Of a stretch of DNA of 55,139 bases, positions 21,492 to 31,005 are shown one piece after another. Source of the stretch: Bacteroidales bacterium (GTDB lineage: Bacteria; Bacteroidota; Bacteroidia; Bacteroidales; UBA932); contig JAFSWO010000044.1 in NCBI GenBank assembly GCA_017450165.1, positions 1 through 55,139 on the forward strand. Reading direction: 5' to 3'. Position numbers and translations under genes: made by a program. Below the pieces are notes generated by a model that was given only the letters and a program-made list of their open reading frames with translations, was not told the DNA's origin and made no database searches. The stretch's first letter is position 1, and each line of letters starts with the position of its first letter.

Positions 21492-22316
21492 ATGAAACGT
21501 TTCCTGCTGCTTATCCTCTTCCTGACGCTTCCCTGCGCGCTCCTGCCCGGATGCGCGGGTGGTACGCGTCAAAAGGTGGAGAAGAAGAACATTCAGGCGC
21601 AGAAACCGGCCTCGGCCGTAAAGGTGATTCGTTGGAAATACCAGCTGTCAGGAGAATACAAGCACGATATCGGTGCCTATACGCAGGGGCTGTTCTTCTA
21701 CGAAGGCAAACTCTACGAGAGCGCCGGCCAGTATGGTGAATCGTCGCTTCGCATTGTGGAGCTCGAGACAGGCAAGGTCCTGAAACGCAAAAACTTCGAT
21801 CGCAAATACTTCCTAGAAGGAGCCTGTGTGCTTGACGGCCTGCTCTATGTGCTGACCTGGAAAGAGGGTATCTGCTTTGTCTGCGATCCCGCCACACTCG
21901 AACAAAAGGCCCAGCTCCGCTACCGCGGGGAAGGATGGGGCCTCACCACCGATGGTAAAAGCCTGATCATGAGCGACGGCTCGGACCGCATCCGCTACCG
22001 CGACCCGAATACCTTTGCCGTGGAACGTGAACTTTCCGTGCGCTACAACGGCCAGCCGCTCGAATGGCTCAACGAACTGGAATACTTTGGAGGGCACATC
22101 TGGGCCAATGTCTATGGACTGGAACTGCTGGTCTGTATCGATCCGGAAACCGGAAACGTACTGGAGGATATCGACTGCCGCGGAATTCTCCCCTCCAACC
22201 TCAAGAAGCCTACGACGGATGTCTTCAACGGCATCGCCTACAACCCTGCTGACGGCGGGCTCTACGTCACGGGCAAGTACTGGCCCAAACTCTTCCGCAT
22301 CCGGAAAGCCAAATAG
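21492..22316 (+). CDS. Glutaminyl-peptide cyclotransferase lipoprotein (plant/bacterial type)
   Basis: The start at 21492 gives 274 residues with lipobox LPGC (Cys21). The mature part is a five-bladed beta-propeller of the Glu_cyclase_2 family (PF05096): YTQGLFFYEGKLYESAGQYGESSLR, FLEGACVLDGLLYVLTW, GEGWGLTTDGKSLIMSDGS, LNELEYFGGHIWANV and FNGIAYNPADGGLYVTGKYW. The enzyme turns N-terminal Gln into pyroglutamate on exported proteins. Such enzymes are frequent in Bacteroidota, where secreted mature N-termini are often Gln after signal cleavage. The rnpB promoter starts five bases after its stop. Confidence 0.9.
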   Translation: MKRFLLLILFLTLPCALLPGCAGGTRQKVEKKNIQAQKPASAVKVIRWKYQLSGEYKHDIGAYTQGLFFYEGKLYESAGQYGESSLRIVELETGKVLKRKNFDRKYFLEGACVLDGLLYVLTWKEGICFVCDPATLEQKAQLRYRGEGWGLTTDGKSLIMSDGSDRIRYRDPNTFAVERELSVRYNGQPLEWLNELEYFGGHIWANVYGLELLVCIDPETGNVLEDIDCRGILPSNLKKPTTDVFNGIAYNPADGGLYVTGKYWPKLFRIRKAK

Positions 22317-22320
22317 TTTG

Positions 22321-22328
22321 TATCTTTG
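22321..22328 (+). promoter_or_regulatory. -7 element for rnpB
   Basis: TATCTTTG matches TAnnTTTG, lies four bases beyond the preceding stop codon and ends six bases before the 5' strand of RNase P helix P1. Confidence 0.7.
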
Positions 22329-22334
22329 CCGCCA

Positions 22335-22697
22335 GAAGGTGGGACAAGTCCGTCGCCGCAGTTTTTGACTGTGGAGGAAAGTCCGGGCAGCGCAGAGCAC
22401 CTCCCTGTGGAAAGCACAGACAGGCGTAAGTTTGTGAGGGGCGTAACAGAAAACAACCGCCCGCGGGTTCTCCCGCAGGTAAGGGTGAAAACGTGAGGCA
22501 AGAGCTCACGGCCGGTGACGGCGACATTACCGGCGTACGCTTCGGAGGGCTGCAAGGCCAAATATACCGGCAGATGAGGGCTGCTCGTCCGATGCCGGGG
22601 GGTAGGCTGCGATAGATAAATGACGGGCGCCGCGCGACAAGGTTGCAACTTAAAATGCGGTCCGCGGAGACAGAACTCGGCTTATCGTCCCACCTTT
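22335..22697 (+). ncRNA. rnpB: RNase P RNA, class A
   Basis: The conserved 5' core GAGGAAAGTCCGGGC (22373-22387) and the 3' core ACAGAACTCGGCTTATCG (22670-22687) bracket a region of the right size. P1 forms between GAAGGTGGGAC at the start and GTCCCACCTT at the end. Between them are AAGGGTGAAAACGTGAGGCAAGAG-type P10/P11 elements and GGGGGGTAGGCTGC. It cleaves tRNA 5' leaders with RnpA. A run of eight T directly after P1 may form the terminator with the P1 helix itself. Confidence 0.95.
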
Positions 22698-22721
22698 TTT
22701 TTCTAAGTATAAACTTTTTAC

Positions 22722-22729
22722 TATCTTTG
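22722..22729 (+). promoter_or_regulatory. -7 element for tRNA-Thr
   Basis: TATCTTTG matches TAnnTTTG and ends 20 bases before the tRNA 5' end. The T-rich end of rnpB sits at the expected -33 distance. Confidence 0.65.
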
Positions 22730-22749
22730 CAGTCCCTTTTGGGAAGCAA

Positions 22750-22822
22750 GCCACTTTAGCTCAGTTGGTAGAGCAGCGCATTCGTAATGCGCAGGTCGTC
22801 AGTTCGAGCCTGATGAGTGGCT
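22750..22822 (+). tRNA. tRNA-Thr (CGT)
   Basis: A 73-base cloverleaf: acceptor GCCACTT with GAGTGGC, D-arm AGCTCAGTTGGTAGAGC, anticodon CGT within the stem GCGCA/TGCGC, and T-arm GTTCGAGCC. The 3' CCA is not encoded. Confidence 0.95.
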
Positions 22823-22823
22823 C

Positions 22824-22861
22824 AAAAAAAAGAGATGCACGGCTGTGCATCTCTTTTTTTT
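22824..22861. terminator. Bidirectional intrinsic terminator
   Basis: AAAAAGAGATGCAC-GGCT-GTGCATCTCTTTTT is a near-perfect hairpin flanked by A and T runs on both sides. It ends tRNA-Thr on the plus strand and the six-gene alarmone/partner-switch operon on the minus strand. Confidence 0.9.
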
Positions 22862-22866
22862 GTAAC

Positions 22867-23616
22867 CTATTCGATAATTGAGAGTTTCTCGCGGGCTTCG
22901 GAGGCTTTCATCAGGTTGAAGTGCCACCATTCCGAGGAGATGGGCAGAAGGCCCTGGTCGGTCATGACCTTTCGGAGGAGCAGACGGTTCTCCAACTCGC
23001 GCTGAGTGATGCGACCCGTGGCGAGCAGTTCCTCCTCGTGGTCGGGACGAGCCTCGTCGCCAAAGAAATCATAGTTCGAACCCATCGGGAAGGGAACCCC
23101 GGCGCAATCAATCAGACTTACGTCAACAGCGGCTCCGAAATTGTGAAGGCCGTTGCCCTTGTAAGGATTGGCCACGAACATCTCCCACGGCGTGCCGACC
23201 ACCACATCCCACATCTCTTTCTGAACGCTGATGGGCCGCGCGGCGTCATAGATGATCAGGTTGGCCGTGGAGTTGAGTTCTTTCAATTCCTTGGCGGCAG
23301 CGGCAAGCTTCTGTGCCAGTTCAGGACGCATGAAGGCTTTGGTGAAACCATGATAGAGCTGACGTCCCATGAAATTGTAGGGACCGGTATAAATCAACTG
23401 CACGGCAATCGTCGAATCGACATCGTGGATATCCACCAGACCGGCTGCACGCATGGCTGCCTCCTTGGGGGTATCGGGGCCCAGATTGGTCTCGAAGTAA
23501 GATAGATAGCTCTTATAGTCGGCATTGGCCGAATTCTGCTTGCAGGCCGCCAGGGAGACAAGCAGCGAGGCGAGCGCAAGAAGGCGCCCCGCAACCGTGA
23601 AACAAGACTTCCTCAT
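22867..23616 (-). CDS. VanX-like D-Ala-D-Ala dipeptidase lipoprotein (M15D)
   Basis: A 249-residue lipoprotein with lipobox LAAC (Cys25). It belongs to the VanX/DdpX family of zinc dipeptidases: YDAARPISVQ holds the substrate Arg, GLHNFGAAVDVSLID holds the H-x6-D zinc ligands, and SEWWHFN gives the catalytic Glu and last His. Anchored in the periplasm, it would cleave D-Ala-D-Ala or related cell-wall dipeptides, more likely for peptidoglycan turnover than for glycopeptide resistance because no vanHA genes are present. It starts 9 bp after the STAS gene and is the last gene of the operon. Confidence 0.9.
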   Translation of the reverse strand: MRKSCFTVAGRLLALASLLVSLAACKQNSANADYKSYLSYFETNLGPDTPKEAAMRAAGLVDIHDVDSTIAVQLIYTGPYNFMGRQLYHGFTKAFMRPELAQKLAAAAKELKELNSTANLIIYDAARPISVQKEMWDVVVGTPWEMFVANPYKGNGLHNFGAAVDVSLIDCAGVPFPMGSNYDFFGDEARPDHEEELLATGRITQRELENRLLLRKVMTDQGLLPISSEWWHFNLMKASEAREKLSIIE

Positions 23617-23625
23617 ACGATTATC

Positions 23626-23928
23626 CTATTGAATTTCAAACAGATTCAGGAAACCGGTCATCATAAAGACGCTACGGATGGCGGGGGTGATATTGCGAAC
23701 AATCACCGTGCCGCCCTTCTCTGCAGCAGCTTTGCGGAGGGTGAGGAAAATACGAAGTCCCGAGCTGGAGATATATTCGAGCTCCGTGCAGTCCAGGATG
23801 ATGGTTCCGCCGGCAGCCCCTACCAGCGTTTCCACATCGTTCGCGATATCCTGCGAAGCAGGCGTATCAAGCCGGCCGCGCAGCTGGGCCGTCACTTCGT
23901 TTTCTTGTTTGGTAATAATTACTTCCAT
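23626..23928 (-). CDS. STAS-domain anti-sigma-factor antagonist-like protein
   Basis: A 100-residue single STAS domain (SpoIIAA/RsbV type). The strand-turn LDCTELEYISSSGLRIFLTLRK (residues 45-66) contains the usual phosphorylatable serine in the SSSGL region (Ser54-56). In partner switching this protein is phosphorylated by a HATPase kinase and dephosphorylated by a PP2C phosphatase. Both activities are predicted on the protein encoded 4 bp upstream. Bacteroidota have no SigB-type regulon as in Bacillus, so the final target is unknown. Confidence 0.92.
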   Translation of the reverse strand: MEVIITKQENEVTAQLRGRLDTPASQDIANDVETLVGAAGGTIILDCTELEYISSSGLRIFLTLRKAAAEKGGTVIVRNITPAIRSVFMMTGFLNLFEIQ

Positions 23929-23932
23929 GGGT

Positions 23933-26128
23933 TTATATTTTTTTGATCATTGTCAGAATATTCTTGTCGTCGCGACGCTCATAGGAAACCTCGTCCATGA
24001 TGGTCCGGACCAGATGGATGCCGAGTCCGCCAATGGGACGCTCTTCAACCCCTGCATTGAGATTGACATCGGGAGCGGCCGTGGGATCGAAGGGTTTTCC
24101 ACTATCTATAATCTTGAAAATCAGGGAATCGGGCTCAATCGTGGCCTCAACTTCCACACTGGCCCGCGTCCCTTCCGGATAGGCATAGAGCATCACGTTG
24201 ACCACCGCCTCTTCGAGCGCCAGATTCAGGCTCGTCGTCACTTCGAGCGATACCTGTTTCTCTTCTGCCACCGATTCTACGAACTCAGCCAGCGAAGGGA
24301 CTTCCTTGATATCATTGTGCAGGACAATCCGGCGGACATCGCTGGACTGGTCAGGGTGACCCAGATAGTGGATGAAGAGCAGGGTGAGGTCGTCGCTCTG
24401 CGGTGCATCGCCCACATATTCGGTAACGGCTTTCCGGATGCTGTCCAGATGCGCGTCGGCACTCTTGCGACCGTGAAGGACGACTTCCACACGCTCCTCG
24501 CCGAACTGCTCGTGCGCAATGTTTTCAGCCTCGGTGAGGCCATCCGTGTAGAGGAACAGCGCGTCGTCATAACAGAGTGCGATCTCCTGGTCGCGGAAAT
24601 CCATTCCGCCCACGATGCCGAGCGGAAGATTCGGTTCCACCGGCAGGGGCTGGATGGTATCGGTCAAGGTCAGTGGCGCATTGTGACCGGCATTGCAAGA
24701 GCGCAGATGGCCCGTCTTCAAATCCAGCACGCCACAGAAGAAGGTGACGAACATATTGTTTTCGTTCATGTCAGCCATGCTGTTGTTCATGGCCGTAAGA
24801 ATCCGCTTTGGAGACTCCTCGTGGGCGGAAACGGTGCGGAACATGGTTCGGGTAACGGCCATCACAAGCGAGGCGGGGATGCCCTTGCCGCTCACATCAC
24901 CGACACAGAAAAAAAGCTTTTCGTCACGAATATAGAAGTCGTATAAATCGCCGCCCACCTCCTTGGCAGGGACGATGGTAGCGGACATATCCAGGTCATA
25001 CCGCTCTTTAGACTCCGGGAAAATCTTGGGAATCATGGACATTTGGATGGCACTGGCAATCTGCAGTTCGCGGGCCATCCGGTCCTTTCGCTCATTGAGT
25101 TCCCGGTAACGGACCTGGCTCTTAAACAAGGACCCGAGAATGAGGATCAGCATCCCGATACCAATAATTTGAAGTACGAAGACGATGGTACCGATCTTCC
25201 GGATACTGCCGAAAATCTCATTTTCAGGAATGACGATCGACATGGACCAACCGGTTCGCTCGACAGGCGAAAAATAGACAGAGCTCCTTTTCCCGCCATA
25301 ACTCACCGTCATATTGCCCGCATTGCCCGAGAGCATCGCACGGCTCAATTCTCCGAAGGTCGCCGTATCTTCCATTTGCGATACTACATCCTGCACCGAT
25401 GCCTGCATCACCAAGGAGGTATCGGGGCAAACCATGAAGCTTCCGTTGCGGCTGATCATCATGCTGTAGGCAGATGGATAAACCTTGACACTGCCCACGA
25501 GATCCGTCAGCCAGTTCAGGGAAATATCGGCCGTCAGGACGGCGGCCGTCCGGTTAAACCGGTCCTTGATAGGAAGGGAATAGGTAGTCATCAAGACTTC
25601 ACCGCCACCGACATCGATATAGGGTTCGGACCAATAGCCCGCATCCAGCTCGATAGGTTTCGTGAACCATTCCTGAGAAGGATAATCGTATTCCTCGGTG
25701 GCAAGGGACCGGAAAACCAAGCCTTCCTCCCCTTCATATACATAGGGGGAAAAGAGTTTTCTCGAGCGGAGATATCCGGGGACGAGCGCCACGGTGGAGC
25801 CCATCACCACGGGATTGTCTTCTACAATGCGCTGCGCCACACGGTAAAGGCTGTCCGGAACATTCAGCGCCCACTGGGCAATCCAGACACTGTTGCGGAC
25901 GGAAGCCTCCGTCTGATTGACAATATCCATGATCCGGTTGCGAGTGGCCTCCATCTGGCTTTCCGCACGCATCGAGGCCTCTTCCCGGATTCCTTTCTGG
26001 GAGAAATAGAGCTGGACCAACGCCGTGGCCTCCAGGGTAATGGCCGCCACGATCACCAGCAACAGGCCCATTCGCGCGGAGTGGCGGATCTGCTTTTTAT
26101 CTGATGTGGAAATGACAGAACGTTTCAT
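23933..26128 (-). CDS. Membrane sensor, SpoIIE-type PP2C phosphatase and HATPase fusion
   Basis: A 731-residue protein. TM1 lies at about 19-40, an extracytoplasmic dCACHE-like sensor at about 43-310 (with PSQEWFTKPIE..GYWSEPY), TM2 at about 311-335, then a short coiled helix. The PP2C/SpoIIE domain covers about 375-590 with metal motifs VGGDLYDFY, GDVSGKGIPA, GHNAPL, LYTDGLTEAEN and SDDLTLL. The C-terminal RsbW/SpoIIAB-like HATPase covers about 600-731 with EEAVVNVMLYAY (N box), IDSGKPFDP and GGLGIHLV. Phosphatase and predicted kinase for the adjacent STAS protein are therefore on one chain. It overlaps the kinase-like gene by four bases. Confidence 0.92.
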   Translation of the reverse strand: MKRSVISTSDKKQIRHSARMGLLLVIVAAITLEATALVQLYFSQKGIREEASMRAESQMEATRNRIMDIVNQTEASVRNSVWIAQWALNVPDSLYRVAQRIVEDNPVVMGSTVALVPGYLRSRKLFSPYVYEGEEGLVFRSLATEEYDYPSQEWFTKPIELDAGYWSEPYIDVGGGEVLMTTYSLPIKDRFNRTAAVLTADISLNWLTDLVGSVKVYPSAYSMMISRNGSFMVCPDTSLVMQASVQDVVSQMEDTATFGELSRAMLSGNAGNMTVSYGGKRSSVYFSPVERTGWSMSIVIPENEIFGSIRKIGTIVFVLQIIGIGMLILILGSLFKSQVRYRELNERKDRMARELQIASAIQMSMIPKIFPESKERYDLDMSATIVPAKEVGGDLYDFYIRDEKLFFCVGDVSGKGIPASLVMAVTRTMFRTVSAHEESPKRILTAMNNSMADMNENNMFVTFFCGVLDLKTGHLRSCNAGHNAPLTLTDTIQPLPVEPNLPLGIVGGMDFRDQEIALCYDDALFLYTDGLTEAENIAHEQFGEERVEVVLHGRKSADAHLDSIRKAVTEYVGDAPQSDDLTLLFIHYLGHPDQSSDVRRIVLHNDIKEVPSLAEFVESVAEEKQVSLEVTTSLNLALEEAVVNVMLYAYPEGTRASVEVEATIEPDSLIFKIIDSGKPFDPTAAPDVNLNAGVEERPIGGLGIHLVRTIMDEVSYERRDDKNILTMIKKI

Positions 26129-26955
26129 AGGATGGAAGCGAGTGCATCACGGAAAACCTGCATCGGCTGGTTCATATCGCGCTCAATGATCAAAGTTTTG
26201 AGTCCGGCATACGGGCGAATCTCCGATTCGATATCCGCCAGAGGGCGGTCAGCCCCGAAGTAGGCCGGCGCAAATTGACGCCAGAACTCACGGGCGAGGA
26301 CGCCGGACATATGGAAGGTCTCCTGAATGAAGGGCTCCGGGCTCAAGGTGCAGCAAAGGTAAACCATGGCCACATCAAAGAGGTGGTTGCCATAGCAGAA
26401 ATCCCCCAGATCAATGAAGTACCGCTTGTCCCCCACGAAAATCACATTGCTGTACTGAAGATCGCCGTGAATGGCCGTATCTTCATCCGGGGTATCCGCG
26501 ATAAAGCGGGCGATCCGGTCTTTCTGCGCCTTGGTGAAGAAGGGATTCTCCGCGAGGAGGCGGTAATAACGATCCTTCACGTTCTCAAAGAGTTTTGTAT
26601 CTACTTGCGTCGCATGAAGCTTGAGGCACATATCGGCGAACTCCTGGGCAAACTGATGAACCTTTTCCGGTTCGTCCGCCGTTGCGCGGGAGTAGGATTT
26701 CTTGCCCACGATCCGGTGGAAACGGATGCCGTAACGGCCATCTTCGGTAACCACATATTCGCCGGGTTCCGGGGTGGGAATACCGGACTCATAGACTTTG
26801 CGAGCCAGCAGCATCTCATCCAGCGGCTGCTGGATCTTGCCCGGGAAATAAAGTTTCAGCATCACCGACGGATCGGTCTTGTGGTCATAGCTCTCTCCGT
26901 TGGCGCCGCCGCCGGAAAGGACATAATCGTCGAGGTTTATCCTGATAGGGTCCAT
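26125..26955 (-). CDS. APH-like phosphotransferase (TIGR02172-type), function unknown
   Basis: A 276-residue protein of the kinase-like/aminoglycoside phosphotransferase fold. The catalytic loop HGDLQYSN (residues 163-170) and the metal-binding segment IDLGDFCYG (181-189) are intact, and a Gly-rich N-terminal loop SGGGANGESY with KLYFP (lysine around 34) matches the ATP site. It resembles the TIGR02172 family of putative phosphotransferases. The substrate is unknown; small molecules, lipids or proteins are all possible. It begins directly after the HD gene with no spacer and overlaps the next gene by four bases. Confidence 0.82.
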   Translation of the reverse strand: MDPIRINLDDYVLSGGGANGESYDHKTDPSVMLKLYFPGKIQQPLDEMLLARKVYESGIPTPEPGEYVVTEDGRYGIRFHRIVGKKSYSRATADEPEKVHQFAQEFADMCLKLHATQVDTKLFENVKDRYYRLLAENPFFTKAQKDRIARFIADTPDEDTAIHGDLQYSNVIFVGDKRYFIDLGDFCYGNHLFDVAMVYLCCTLSPEPFIQETFHMSGVLAREFWRQFAPAYFGADRPLADIESEIRPYAGLKTLIIERDMNQPMQVFRDALASIL

Positions 26956-27534
26956 TTATTTGGAAAACACTTGATTGATAAGTTGTTCGAATTCTTGAAA
27001 AGCAAAGGTACCGGAGAGTTCCCGCAGGGCGTCGGCCAAGCCGCGATAATGCCATTCGTGCTCCGCCGGATCGCTTACGTGGAAGAGGCTCCAGAAGGAA
27101 TCGCCCTTCTGCGCATAGTCCCGCGCAATGGCGCGCATGTTGGAAAGCTTGTCACCCAGAGCCACCATCTTGGCATCGCGGGAGGCGCGGGAGAGACGGT
27201 CAATCGCCGCCTGCTTGCGGGCATGCCAGCTCTCCTCTTCGGATACACCGGCCTCAAAAGTGTCGCTCTCGTCGGCCACCAGGTGTGCGATGCGGTCTCC
27301 AAAGGCTTCGCGAAGCTGCTCCACCGTTACGTCGGTGTCCTCTACCGTATCGTGCAGCGCCGCAGCGGCCAGCAACTCCTGGTCCGGGGTCATCGTGGAA
27401 ACGATAGCCACCGCCTCCATGGGATGAACGATGTACGGAAAACCTTTGCCACGACGCTCCGTACCGGCATGCGCATGGACTGCAAAAAGAATGGCACGGT
27501 CCAACAGTTCTGTATCGAGAGGTTTGTTAGCCAT
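26956..27534 (-). CDS. HD-domain protein, probable small alarmone hydrolase
   Basis: A 192-residue protein resembling the hydrolase half of RelA/SpoT: AHAGTERRGKGFPYIVHPMEAVAIV (first His and HP motif, residues about 21-45), AAAALHDTVEDTDVT (HD pair and ED motif, about 56-70) and a later ALGDKLSNMRAI with the last Asp. These are the manganese and ppGpp hydrolysis residues of SpoT and MESH1-like enzymes. There is no synthetase domain; the synthetase is encoded separately 3 bp upstream. It probably removes (p)ppGpp or a related pyrophosphorylated nucleotide. Confidence 0.87.
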   Translation of the reverse strand: MANKPLDTELLDRAILFAVHAHAGTERRGKGFPYIVHPMEAVAIVSTMTPDQELLAAAALHDTVEDTDVTVEQLREAFGDRIAHLVADESDTFEAGVSEEESWHARKQAAIDRLSRASRDAKMVALGDKLSNMRAIARDYAQKGDSFWSLFHVSDPAEHEWHYRGLADALRELSGTFAFQEFEQLINQVFSK

Positions 27535-27537
27535 CGG

Positions 27538-28635
27538 TTATTGGTTCATAAAGGGTAAGTCTTTCGTCTGTTCCACCAGGAATTCAGCCATGCCCTCATT
27601 GCCCTCGTTGGGGCCGTTCAGAGTATCCAGCATAAACCGGAGACCGGCACGGCCGCCACCGTTTTTGAGAATATAGGCCGTGCAGAGGTTCTGCGGAGCA
27701 ACCGCGGACGAAAGAATATCGATATCGGTGAGACCGATCTGGAAGCAAGCAATCTGATAGGCCGCCTCCGAATAGTCCTTGATGAGGTTGGATACTTCTC
27801 CCAGGGTCTTGAAACCCAGCTCTTTGAGGAGCGGAAGAAAACGGGAGAGATCCACCTCTTGGATCTCCGCCTGGTTGAGCGAGGCTATCCTGCGGGTAAG
27901 CCGGGCAAAGGGGTGAATGGAGAGGTAACTGCGGAAGGAATCGCCATCCAGAGGCACCTCATCCAGATTACCGGAAGCCACAAGGCTCTGAACCTGACGG
28001 CGGTAGTCGGAGATCTCGCGGCGGATGCGGCTGAACTCGTCATCCACCAGTTCCAGCATGCCCGCCAGACGGCTGAGATTGCGAAGATAGACCTTGGGGA
28101 TCTCCACGCCGCTCTTGTAGCCGGTATCGTGGTTCATGTTTGCCCAGGCGTGCTGCAACACGGTACGCATCTGCACTTCAAACCGTATCTTGTTGATTTC
28201 CGGGTGTTCCGGATCGTGATAGGCCGACTCGGGAATGCGGCAGATATAGTGAAGGGAGAGGTAGCCGAAGCTGTCTATCTCATGCGCCTTGCGCTTGTCC
28301 ACGGAATTCTCCCAATCTATCTCAAAAAGGCGCTCCAGCACCGATGCGACCTTGTCCACGTCATCTATATAGAAGGTAATGACACGCAGACCGATCAGAT
28401 CGGTCAGATCAAAGATCTCCCGATACTTCCCGCCCTTGCGCAGGATCTTTCCGGTCAGGGATTCTTCCGTCTTTACGCGGTGCTCAACGGCGGCAACGAT
28501 AATACCAGCATCGGCAAAAAAGTCCTTGAGTTTCTGGGGGATGATTTCGCCCATCTTTGCATAGACGGGCAGCAGCGAATGATACTGGTCCAGAATCGAC
28601 TGTGTCAGCGGATCGAGAATCTGTTTGGTGGACAT
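27538..28635 (-). CDS. RelA/SpoT-domain nucleotide pyrophosphokinase with unknown C-terminal region
   Basis: A 365-residue protein. Residues about 45-200 form the RelA_SpoT synthetase domain (PF04607): GKILRKGGKYREIFDLTDLIGLRV (ATP-binding basic loop and catalytic Asp), GYLSLHY and FEVQMRTVLQHAWANMNHDTGYKS, with the Glu and Arg of EVQMRT kept. The usual G-Y-R/Q-S-x-H has Leu in place of Arg/Gln. Residues about 215-365 form a helical extension unlike the RelA TGS/ACT tail; I do not recognise it. It should transfer pyrophosphate to GDP/GTP or another nucleotide. It is first in the six-gene operon and has its own probable promoter. Confidence 0.85.
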   Translation of the reverse strand: MSTKQILDPLTQSILDQYHSLLPVYAKMGEIIPQKLKDFFADAGIIVAAVEHRVKTEESLTGKILRKGGKYREIFDLTDLIGLRVITFYIDDVDKVASVLERLFEIDWENSVDKRKAHEIDSFGYLSLHYICRIPESAYHDPEHPEINKIRFEVQMRTVLQHAWANMNHDTGYKSGVEIPKVYLRNLSRLAGMLELVDDEFSRIRREISDYRRQVQSLVASGNLDEVPLDGDSFRSYLSIHPFARLTRRIASLNQAEIQEVDLSRFLPLLKELGFKTLGEVSNLIKDYSEAAYQIACFQIGLTDIDILSSAVAPQNLCTAYILKNGGGRAGLRFMLDTLNGPNEGNEGMAEFLVEQTKDLPFMNQ

Positions 28636-28655
28636 ATCCGTTATAATAAATCGCG

Positions 28656-28663
28656 TAAAGTTA
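28656..28663 (-). promoter_or_regulatory. Probable -7 element for the alarmone/partner-switch operon
   Basis: TAACTTTA on the minus strand differs from TAnnTTTG only in the last base and lies 20 bases before the ATG at 28635, in the 42-bp gap after galK. Confidence 0.4.
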
Positions 28664-28677
28664 ACGAATTATCGCTC

Positions 28678-29820
28678 TCAAAGTTCATGCGCCCCCGAAG
28701 AAATCACCACCGGGTATACCTTGGGAGCATGGCCGAATGCTGCGGTGAAGCAATTGTGTGCCGCCAGAAGAAAGGCATCATAGCGTTCTTCAGGCACCAG
28801 ATTGATGGTACAGCCGCCAAAACCGCCTCCCATGACGCGACTTCCCGTAACGCCTTGCTTATCAGCCAGTGTGACCAGAAAATCCAGCTCCGGGCAACTC
28901 ACTTCATACAACTTGCTCAATCCCCAGTGCGTCTGGTACATCCGCTCACCTACCGTGACATAATCTCCCCGTTCCAGTGCAGCACAGACATCCAAGACGC
29001 GCTGTGCCTCGCCAATGACATATTCCGCACGCATGGCATCTTCTTGAGAAAGCTCTGCGCGAACCTCTTCCAGCCATTCGAGGCGGGCATCGCTCAAGAA
29101 CTCCACTTCCGGATGGCGCTTTCGGATAACGGCGGCCGCCTGCTCACAGGAGGCGCGCCTACGATTGTAGGCCGACGAGGCCAGTTCGTGCTTGACACAG
29201 GTATCGAGCAGTACCAGGCGATAGCCCTTGGGGTCAAAGGGGAAGTATTGGTATTCCAGCGTCTTGCAATTGAGACGAATCAGCTGTCCCTCCTTTCCGA
29301 AACAGGAGGCAAACTGATCCATGATCCCACACATCACCCCGCAATAGTTGTGCTCGGTAGCCTGCCCGATACGGGCCAGCTCAAAAAGGTCAAAACCATT
29401 GTCATTCAATTCGTTGAGCGCGAAAGTGAAGACGCTTTCAAGGGCGGCTGAAGAGGAGAGCCCCGCACCGAGCGGAACATCTCCGGCAAACACGGCGTCA
29501 AATCCATCTACATGACCTCCCCTTTTGAGCATCTCTCGGCAGACACCAAATACATAGCGCGCCCATTGGCGCTCCGGAAGATCCGATTCGGATAAACCGA
29601 ATTCCGCCCTTTCATCGTAATCCAACGAGTAGAGACGAACCGTTTGCGTATGGTTGGGGCGGATGGCGGCCACGATGGCTTTGTTGATGGCACCCGGCAA
29701 TACGTAACCGCCATTATAGTCGGTGTGCTCGCCGATCAGATTGATTCTGCCTGCTGAAGACCAGCATCTTGCAGTTCCGCCGAAGCGGCTGGAAAACTCA
29801 GAGAGGATACGCTCTTTCAT
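28678..29820 (-). CDS. galK: Galactokinase
   Basis: A 380-residue GHMP kinase of usual length. Signatures: GRINLIGEHTDYNGGYVLPGAIN near the N-terminus, the ATP loop PLGAGLSSSAALE, and RVMGGGFGGCTINLVP near the C-terminus. It phosphorylates galactose at C1 (Leloir pathway). No galT, galE or galM is adjacent. It has its own TATATTTG box and is separated from the next operon by 42 bp. Confidence 0.97.
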   Translation of the reverse strand: MKERILSEFSSRFGGTARCWSSAGRINLIGEHTDYNGGYVLPGAINKAIVAAIRPNHTQTVRLYSLDYDERAEFGLSESDLPERQWARYVFGVCREMLKRGGHVDGFDAVFAGDVPLGAGLSSSAALESVFTFALNELNDNGFDLFELARIGQATEHNYCGVMCGIMDQFASCFGKEGQLIRLNCKTLEYQYFPFDPKGYRLVLLDTCVKHELASSAYNRRRASCEQAAAVIRKRHPEVEFLSDARLEWLEEVRAELSQEDAMRAEYVIGEAQRVLDVCAALERGDYVTVGERMYQTHWGLSKLYEVSCPELDFLVTLADKQGVTGSRVMGGGFGGCTINLVPEERYDAFLLAAHNCFTAAFGHAPKVYPVVISSGAHEL

Positions 29821-29837
29821 AGATTTCTAGTAACGTA

Positions 29838-29845
29838 CAAATATA
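29838..29845 (-). promoter_or_regulatory. -7 element for galK
   Basis: TATATTTG on the minus strand matches TAnnTTTG and lies 17 bases before the galK ATG. The plus strand of this divergent gap shows only a weak box, TACGTTTA at 29882-29889, for the DUF4493 lipoprotein gene. Confidence 0.6.
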
Positions 29846-29949
29846 CGAAAAAACGCGTCTATCCGTTTCCTTACGGATACTTACGTTTAGATTACGCCTA
29901 GTGACGAAGGATTGTGCAGCTTGCGCCCCGAACCAAAACCCGATGCACC

Positions 29950-31005
29950 ATGAAAACATACAATCTGATCCTTTCCGCCGTGCTCCTCTGTACAACCTTC
30001 TCCGGATGCGAATCCGACAGGCAGCAGGGCACACTCATCCTTACGTTTGCCGAGCCGCTCAGCGCAGAACCCGCAACCCGAGCCACAGCGGCCTGTGACA
30101 CCAATGCTTTCCTTCTTACTCTAACCGGGCCTTCCGGAGACACACTATATTGCGGCACCTATGGCCAAAAGCCCACCGCCTTTACCGTTCGAAACGGAAC
30201 CTACGAAATTGAAGTCGTATCCAGATCCTTCTCCGCCCCGGCATTTGACGCGCCGCAGTACGGAGACCGGCAGGTAGCCATCGTTGCCAACGGCCAGAAT
30301 GTGCAGATCGGGCTGTTCTGTAAGCTGATCAATGCCGGCATCCGGTTTACCTTCGCCGATTCGTTCCGCACGCAGTATGGCTACGGGCACCTGCTTCTGC
30401 GAGGCGCTTCAGGTGAACTTCCCTATCGTCTGCAGGAGACGCGCACGGCCTGGTTCCCGCCCGGCAACGTCAATGTGAATTATGTGGAAGGGGCCGAGGA
30501 GCTGGCGTTGTTCAACCGGGTCCTCAAAGCCGGTGAGATTCACGATCTTACGCTCAATGCCTCCAGCGACAAAGCGTCGGCCGGACTCTCCATTCAGGTA
30601 GACACGACCGCCAACGTACTCAGTGAGAACATCGTTATCGGTCCCGGTTATGCAGGAAGCGACGGCAAGACGATGGAGACTGCCTGGGATGTCGCTACCG
30701 CTATAGCTCATCCCGGTGATACCGCCTGGGTCTGGGGATACATCGTGGGCGGAGATCTCTCCACCAGCTCCATCAAGTTCGATCCGCCCTTCGAAAAGAG
30801 CTCGAACCTGGCCATCGCCGCCTTCGCTTCGGAGCGGGAACGAGCCAATTGCTTCTCCGTGGAGCTGTCCAAAACGGCGATTCGCAATTCGCTCAACCTC
30901 GTAGATCATCCGGAAAATCTGGGAAAGAAGGTCTATCTCTACGGAGTCGTTTCCACCTACTTTTCTCTCCCAGGCCTGAAATCCGTTACAGCCAGTTTTA
31001 TATAA
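29950..31005 (+). CDS. DUF4493/DUF6359 lipoprotein
   Basis: The start at 29950 gives 351 residues with lipobox FSGC (Cys20). The N-terminal part (GTLILTFAEPLSAEPATRA, then FLLTLTGPSGDTLYCGTYG) resembles DUF4493, an Ig-like fimbrium-type beta domain of Bacteroidota lipoproteins. The C-terminal third (AWDVATAIAHPGDTAWVWGYIVGG, LNLVDHPENLGKKVYLYGVVSTYFSLPGLKSV) resembles DUF6359, an OB-like fold. It is probably surface exposed; function unknown. It is alone on the plus strand, divergent from galK and followed by a hairpin. Confidence 0.82.
   Translation: MKTYNLILSAVLLCTTFSGCESDRQQGTLILTFAEPLSAEPATRATAACDTNAFLLTLTGPSGDTLYCGTYGQKPTAFTVRNGTYEIEVVSRSFSAPAFDAPQYGDRQVAIVANGQNVQIGLFCKLINAGIRFTFADSFRTQYGYGHLLLRGASGELPYRLQETRTAWFPPGNVNVNYVEGAEELALFNRVLKAGEIHDLTLNASSDKASAGLSIQVDTTANVLSENIVIGPGYAGSDGKTMETAWDVATAIAHPGDTAWVWGYIVGGDLSTSSIKFDPPFEKSSNLAIAAFASERERANCFSVELSKTAIRNSLNLVDHPENLGKKVYLYGVVSTYFSLPGLKSVTASFI

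Follow-up and report, generated by a model that had tools for sequence, protein, structure and literature searches.

A conserved five-gene Bacteroidales module that may couple an external sensor to an alarmone synthetase and hydrolase through a partner switch

Why should enzymes of alarmone metabolism be encoded in one tight row with the parts of a partner-switching circuit? The question is raised by a locus on contig JAFSWO010000044.1 of a Bacteroidales bacterium, a single contig of 55,139 bases (the window, meaning the whole stretch of DNA that was analysed) from a 1.68 Mb draft genome that is 75.6% complete. An earlier note on this DNA had described six minus-strand open reading frames with gaps of +3, 0, -4, +4 and +9 bp; frames and gaps were recovered exactly, and a Pfam scan bore out the domain names given to the six proteins. 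Its proposal of a system joining alarmone enzymes to a partner switch is upheld by conserved linkage and by the co-occurrence of synthetase and hydrolase, though its six-gene boundary, its link to the cell wall and its promoter are not. We favor, with a probability of roughly 55%, a five-gene module in which a Cache sensor outside the cytoplasm would act, through a partner switch, on a dedicated synthetase and hydrolase of alarmones. The reading is built on gene content, active sites that look intact, linkage, the co-occurrence of the two enzymes and the sub-pairs kept together in two species with a split module, all read at the level of sequence. The core genes, and the domains of the membrane protein, are as follows.

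27538..28635, minus strand: small alarmone synthetase (SAS) of the RelA/SpoT type, 365 aa (Pfam RelA_SpoT, E 5.5e-18)
26956..27534, minus strand: HD protein resembling small alarmone hydrolases, 192 aa (Pfam HD_4, 4e-21)
26125..26955, minus strand: APH-like kinase, 276 aa (Pfam APH, 7.6e-15)
23933..26128, minus strand: membrane protein with double Cache, PP2C and HATPase in one chain, 731 aa (Pfam; membrane topology judged by eye)
25502..25846, minus strand: first PDC/Cache sensor domain of that chain, residues 95-209 (MCP-like_PDC_1, 3.5e-27)
24368..24925, minus strand: its PP2C/SpoIIE phosphatase domain (SpoIIE, 7.7e-50)
23942..24313, minus strand: its HATPase_c_2 (RsbW-type kinase) domain, residues 606-729 (Pfam, 9.6e-28)
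23626..23928, minus strand: STAS antagonist protein, 100 aa (Pfam STAS, 1.8e-15)

The association of these five genes is not confined to the window. One genome per species was scanned across 84,980 species, and the best 80 of 565 confirmed stretches were analysed (the 80 named loci); all appear to belong to metagenome-assembled genomes of Bacteroidales or Bacteroidia, many of them from rumen. By tblastn, STAS lies within 7 kb of SAS and on its strand in 77 of the 80, APH and HATPase in 75 each, and HD and PP2C in 74 each, with all five partners present in 65. These counts, like those for 29 same-genus loci given below, include loci truncated by contig ends; among the 55 loci with at least 5 kb on either side, STAS and PP2C are each found in 54 and all five partners in 49. 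The exceptions in this subset are loci without HD (L122, L147, L158), without APH (L123, L147) or without both PP2C and HATPase (L148), and L174, which has no STAS or HATPase on the SAS strand. The arrangement of L174 (6683-14128) is itself unusual, with SAS-HD-APH flanked by two PP2C genes, one of which is accompanied by STAS and HATPase on the opposite strand. STAS sits directly upstream of SAS in 61 of the 80 loci, and the median intergenic gap is 3 bp over 281 gaps. Because same-genus genomes of about 2 Mb hold only 0-5 SpoIIE PP2C copies, we estimate that chance would place one within 7 kb of SAS in about 2% of cases. The earlier note had named scattered, unlinked homologues as an outcome that would end its proposal; instead, linkage is kept across several families and through rearrangements.

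In a first sample, a SAS homologue was found in 28 of 36 other genomes of the same genus and in none of 24 genomes of other families. When 295 genomes of the order were scanned with a profile, 7, among them the window's own, had full-length orthologues (score above 500 bits), and 18 more gave only weaker matches of at most 95 bits. Besides the window's locus there are 29 SAS places in the genus, spread over 28 genomes with two in G031; with flanks of varying length, HD accompanies SAS in 25, STAS and an HATPase domain in 24 each, and PP2C in 21. In the four other genomes of the phylum sample with more distant synthetases, matching at E <= 1e-30, no module gene was labelled in the roughly 16 kb fetched around each.

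SAS and the module HD protein are strictly associated, being both present or both absent in 331 of 331 genomes (35 with both, 296 with neither), several of these genomes being incomplete drafts. The SAS and HD profile scans of the order used samples drawn alike and the same genome handles; the HD profile exceeded 240 bits in exactly the seven genomes that bear SAS, and among the remaining 288 the top score was 80 bits. Among the 37 genomes of the genus it exceeded 300 bits in all 29 that bear SAS, the eight SAS-less genomes reaching 126.9 at most (G019). In four of the 35 genomes with both (G006, G009, G020, G032), HD is found on another contig than SAS. SpoIIE PP2C follows the same trend, being present in 29 of 29 SAS-bearing and 3 of 8 SAS-less genomes of the genus (Fisher p 1.3e-4, kinship ignored).

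Gene order, by comparison, is fluid. A SAS tree was built with FastTree from 116 rows, which include one contig twice (L042 = L181) as well as near-copies, and 36 of its 112 inner branches have support below 80. The open reading frames behind these rows were called by script from the first possible start, and its greedy choice missed the STAS of L153 and the HD of L050, such that incomplete loci among the rows are partly artefacts; the 80 named loci were recounted by tblastn. All partners are present in 83 rows, in 10 gene arrangements, one of which (L154) is the commonest order with a second copy of the switch. On the tree, nine changes of arrangement are needed, the minimum for 10 states, and content has thus been kept while order varies. 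The commonest order, PP2C/HATPase-STAS-SAS-APH-HD, accounts for 46 of the 116 rows and that of the window, SAS-HD-APH-PP2C/HATPase-STAS, for 16. Fusions also differ by locus, joining HD to APH, PP2C to HATPase, or a YegS-type lipid kinase to HATPase. The window's genus is broken up in the tree, a sign, at the level of sequence, that the module may have been transferred between families.

Two species in which the module has come apart are informative as to its internal organization. In G006 and G020, SAS and STAS form a bare pair with a 1-bp gap, while HATPase, an NMT1 protein and Cache/PP2C lie on another contig and HD-APH on a third. Since these sub-pairs stay together when the whole is split, they point to SAS/STAS, HATPase/PP2C and HD/APH as probable working pairs.

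Several further genes recur in or near the module. A YegS/DAGK-type lipid kinase fused to HATPase (434 aa) lies inside that of L047 (6810-8114), and the kinase may also stand beside the module; an NMT1/THI5-like binding protein adjoins PP2C in same-genus relatives (L047:6810-8114; L187:3225 onward). In L172 (292-1791), L177, L178, L180 and L183, a Na+/H+ exchanger of about 500 aa with TrkA_C, confirmed by Pfam in L172 only, stands between PP2C/HATPase and STAS. A cytidylate kinase-like gene occurs in or beside the module in L152 (12622-13269, PF13189) and, as judged by eye, in L154, L166 and L169, and a protein resembling the Y_phosphatase3 of L040 is found near it in 48 of the 80 named loci.

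At the level of individual proteins, the core looks intact. Against the nearest relative, L034, the ratio of nonsynonymous to synonymous substitution rates (dN/dS) of the five genes is 0.05-0.15, with dS of 1.2-1.4 and so near saturation, in keeping with purifying selection. SAS carries a RelA_SpoT domain and catalytic residues with no HD domain in the chain, as would be expected of a small alarmone synthetase, and D79, E153 and the basic residues R53, K55, K63, K67 and K70 are invariant in 53 aligned sequences. Its PDB relatives are RelQ/RelP (RelQ/YjbM)-type synthetases, over residues ~11-214 only, and it is not a RelQ (YjbM) equivalog, scoring 59.6 bits against an NCBIfam cut-off of 320. 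The C-terminal part, residues ~180-365, is conserved and gave no convincing domain match; an ACT-like domain there was considered and rejected (GDH_ACT3, 6.8e-4, under cut-off and in 1 of 53 sequences). The HD protein, whose PDB relatives are 7qoe and 4yf1, combines HD_4 with the full set of metal and catalytic residues of a putative small alarmone hydrolase: R28, H37, H61-D62, E65-D66, D128 and N132 are invariant (25 and 12 aligned sequences). The roles assigned to the conserved residues of both enzymes are those we take to hold for RelQ, RelSeq and Mesh1. The APH-like kinase of the window scores 226.0 bits against TIGR02172, just under the cut-off of 228.2 (window protein only), and K34, H163/D165/N170 and D182 are invariant in 10 sequences; in many same-genus relatives it is fused to the C terminus of HD, giving an HD-APH protein of ~470 aa.

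On the side of the switch, the dCache_1 match of the membrane protein extends to residue 298, and the EE...N box and GGLGI motif of the HATPase domain, which is a separate gene in some relatives, are conserved in seven sequences. In STAS, S54 and S55 are invariant in 23 sequences, and S55 lines up with the RsbV serine in alignments to RsbV and TM1442, a serine which we take to be the phosphorylated site. PP2C, a STAS protein with a conserved serine and HATPase_c_2 are thus encoded together, as in a partner switch, with linkage in 74-77 of the 80 loci.

The nearest precedent for such an arrangement is SiaABCD of Pseudomonas aeruginosa, where, under the control of SiaA and SiaB, the cyclase SiaD is bound and activated by SiaC in its unphosphorylated form but is not bound by the phosphorylated one (PMC8457831); a second study describes the system as a partner switch (PMC7647112). 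As there, a PP2C phosphatase, a kinase, a putatively phosphorylated antagonist and a putative synthetase of a nucleotide second messenger, whose activity the first three would set, share one operon, and the phosphatase part of the membrane protein matches the NCBIfam SiaA model (3.3e-12), albeit at 45.7 bits and far under the cut-off of 700. In contrast to SiaABCD, the synthetase is of the alarmone type instead of a diguanylate cyclase, the gene set is extended by a hydrolase and an APH-like kinase, and phosphatase and kinase can form a single chain. In addition, SiaC is presumably not a classical STAS protein, nor SiaB an HATPase. The module also resembles RsbU/RsbV/RsbW and SpoIIE/SpoIIAA/SpoIIAB, with which it shares PP2C, STAS with the conserved serine and the HATPase kinase motifs, but it differs from these in that its steady neighbors are alarmone enzymes and no sigma-B/F-type factor was found above cut-off. 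The synthetase core, with matching D and E, is shared with RelQ and RelP, yet SAS falls far below the RelQ cut-off and has a conserved C-terminal stretch of ~180 residues. The HD protein likewise shares its fold family and catalytic residues with the small alarmone hydrolases Lmo0812 (4yf1), 7qoe and Mesh1, though, unlike them, it always accompanies a single type of synthetase and is often joined to an APH-like kinase in one chain.

From these likenesses the following mechanism may be proposed. An external ligand would determine how the PP2C phosphatase and the HATPase kinase are balanced against each other, the former dephosphorylating and the latter phosphorylating STAS, presumably at S55. 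In one of its two forms, by analogy with SiaC most likely the dephosphorylated one, STAS would bind SAS, probably at the conserved C-terminal part of the synthetase, and so turn alarmone synthesis on. The HD enzyme would then clear the product of SAS, and the APH-like kinase might tune HD or act on a small substrate. A cue from outside the cell would in this way set a pulse of alarmone, separately from the two further, longer RelA_SpoT proteins that the same genome encodes.

A number of points weigh against this reading and should be set beside it. The action of STAS on the alarmone enzymes, and its direction, are still matters of inference, the direction being borrowed by analogy from SiaABCD, and the product of SAS may be (p)ppGpp or (p)ppApp. 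The loci counted are related, and the counts are not independent. Not every genome keeps the pairs intact: in G009, a single locus (L187) unites PP2C, HATPase and STAS, with SAS and HD each elsewhere, which speaks against a SAS-STAS pair; L091 and L092 have SAS and HD with no recognizable STAS, PP2C or HATPase nearby; and the SAS of L043 is without a partner on its strand. SAS also has a partial match, over residues 48-165, to the candidate PDC-S33 in a PADLOC scan (8.4e-14), and a weak one (E 7.7e-4) to PDB 7ztb, which we take to be a CapRel-type structure. Finally, PP2C is present in three SAS-less genomes of the genus (G025, G033, G035), and 8 of 12 further hand-picked PP2C places (L186-L191, L194, L195) have PP2C and STAS without SAS.

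Some of these SAS-less switches have neighbors of their own. The loci L186 and L194, from SAS-less species, carry NMT1-Cache/PP2C/HATPase-STAS, followed in L186 by a fusion of a family-3 solute-binding protein with a permease and by an ATP-binding cassette (ABC) ATPase; these are possibly the same switch with a transporter as its output. A degenerate HATPase that seemed, by eye, to make up the C-terminal end of ABC ATPases neighboring L186, L187 and L091 was discarded at an hhalign probability of 2.2%. The SAS-HD of L091 directly follows an ABC transporter to which a family-3 binding domain is fused. Further PP2C-STAS pairs lie away from SAS in SAS-bearing genomes of the genus (L188-L191, L195), those of L190 and L191 following large genes that by eye resemble non-ribosomal peptide synthetases.

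The existence of PP2C-STAS sets without SAS implies that this type of switch is more general and can serve other outputs, and it is an argument for the likeliest of the alternatives, in which STAS targets something else, whether a transcription factor, an extracytoplasmic function (ECF) or other sigma factor, or a transporter. The alarmone enzymes would then not be bound by STAS, and would serve in the same operon as a second output alongside or as a feedback arm. Such sets occur within the genus both in SAS-less species (L186, L194) and, in addition to the module, in SAS-bearing ones. HATPase proteins of the RsbW kind classically bind sigma factors, short C-terminal sigma-like matches exist that are taken for ECF factors, and the exchanger with TrkA_C, the cytidylate kinase-like protein, the tyrosine phosphatase, the YegS-type lipid kinase and the NMT1 binding protein recur in some loci. 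Yet SAS and STAS persist as a bare pair in L053 and L056 with the rest of the module elsewhere, and no sigma or transcription factor gene is a regular member of the loci listed, not all of whose unlabelled reading frames were identified. In 61 genomes, drafts among them that may miss genes, no SigB/F/G-type sigma factor passed the TIGR02980 cut-off of 234 bits (best 127.8); from their length, the best matches are taken for main-sigma-like proteins, and the match near 119 bits that is the best in most same-genus genomes is taken for the main sigma factor itself. On balance we consider a different STAS target unlikely, though deserving of attention.

The same enzymes could instead form a defence or abortive-infection system, with SAS and HD as a toxSAS/hydrolase pair. 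The synthetase domain is shared with toxSAS toxin-antitoxin systems and CapRel, some of which have a partner hydrolase; the matches to 7ztb and PDC-S33, the strict SAS-HD co-occurrence and the division of the host genus in the SAS tree, by which the unit seems mobile, would all fit. Unlike in those systems, however, the hydrolase can be unlinked, an unusual state for a toxin-antitoxin pair that is seen in the 4 of 35 genomes with HD on another contig, and a phospho-switch is part of the module. SAS, whose dN/dS is low, occurs in 29 of the 37 genus genomes, its best PDB relatives are RelQ/RelP-type enzymes, and HD, APH, PP2C, STAS and VanX have no PADLOC match; nor did the Pfam, NCBIfam and PADLOC scans, to which the search was confined, reveal another antitoxin. 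A defensive role is accordingly an improbable explanation. A chance operon of unrelated genes in a single lineage is refuted for the five-gene core by content kept over 10 arrangements, by the three kinds of fusion and by SAS-HD co-occurrence, and stands only for VanX and galK, which lie beside the module in none of the 29 same-genus stretches.

These two genes mark the edges of the locus, where the following features were also noted.

22867..23616, minus strand: VanX-like M15 dipeptidase lipoprotein, 249 aa, accessory (Peptidase_M15, 2.8e-22)
22819..22867, minus strand: intrinsic terminator hairpin, 49 nt, 3' of the last gene (folding against shuffled sequences)
22750-22823, plus strand: tRNA-Thr, convergent with the VanX gene

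VanX had been counted as the sixth member, and we have reduced it to an accessory. It was seen in none of the 29 same-genus SAS stretches, some of these being cut short, and is found near the module in 3 of the 80 named loci. It recurs only as a gene 27-29% identical to that of the window, which in L177 comes directly after APH; in L172 it is close to the module, and in L153 it lies at a greater distance. Those of L172 (5250-6023) and L177 (14431-15183), M15 dipeptidases just downstream of the module and 28-29% identical, perhaps represent independent recruitment. With VanX outside the conserved core, the suggested link to cell-wall remodelling loses its support. The strong terminator predicted after the last gene is borne out (-30.7 kcal/mol, z -9.1, none of 200 shuffles as good), and one perfect hairpin in the 22750-22867 region appears to terminate both the operon and the convergent tRNA-Thr. 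The probable promoter placed before the first gene is not supported, as galK, on the same strand, ends 42 bp before that gene; a sigma-70-type scan found no promoter in this 42-bp gap, and over 22000-30200 it returned three promoter-like sites against 4.7 expected. A Bacteroidota-type promoter in the gap looks weak by eye, and transcription of the operon may begin farther upstream.

The usual accounts attribute alarmone levels to ribosome stalling, to starvation sensing through long RelA/SpoT homologues (RSH) or to transcription of small synthetases. In the open-access literature we found no paper tying STAS/PP2C partner switching to an alarmone synthetase, which is not proof of absence. The available text of an RSH survey lists Rel and RshB for Bacteroidia and has no occurrence of 'STAS' (PMC3153485), and that of a STAS review has none of ppGpp or alarmone (PMC8256260). 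What we rate as new is the type of enzyme that partner switching would here have as its output. The fuller proposition, that this is a widespread Bacteroidales module in which a Cache receptor directly controls the SAS/HD pair through STAS partner switching, by an allosteric, ribosome-independent and phosphorylation-gated route that would feed the stringent response from outside the cell, seems to us evenly balanced. If true, an external ligand could affect alarmones post-translationally, through a dedicated enzyme pair under a phospho-switch, and cyclic-di-GMP would no longer be the only kind of nucleotide messenger driven by partner switching. The module would also give STAS/HATPase systems a role in genomes where sigma-B/F was not found. 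The module occurs in rumen and gut bacteria, and it carries the testable prediction that binding of STAS to SAS depends on S55.

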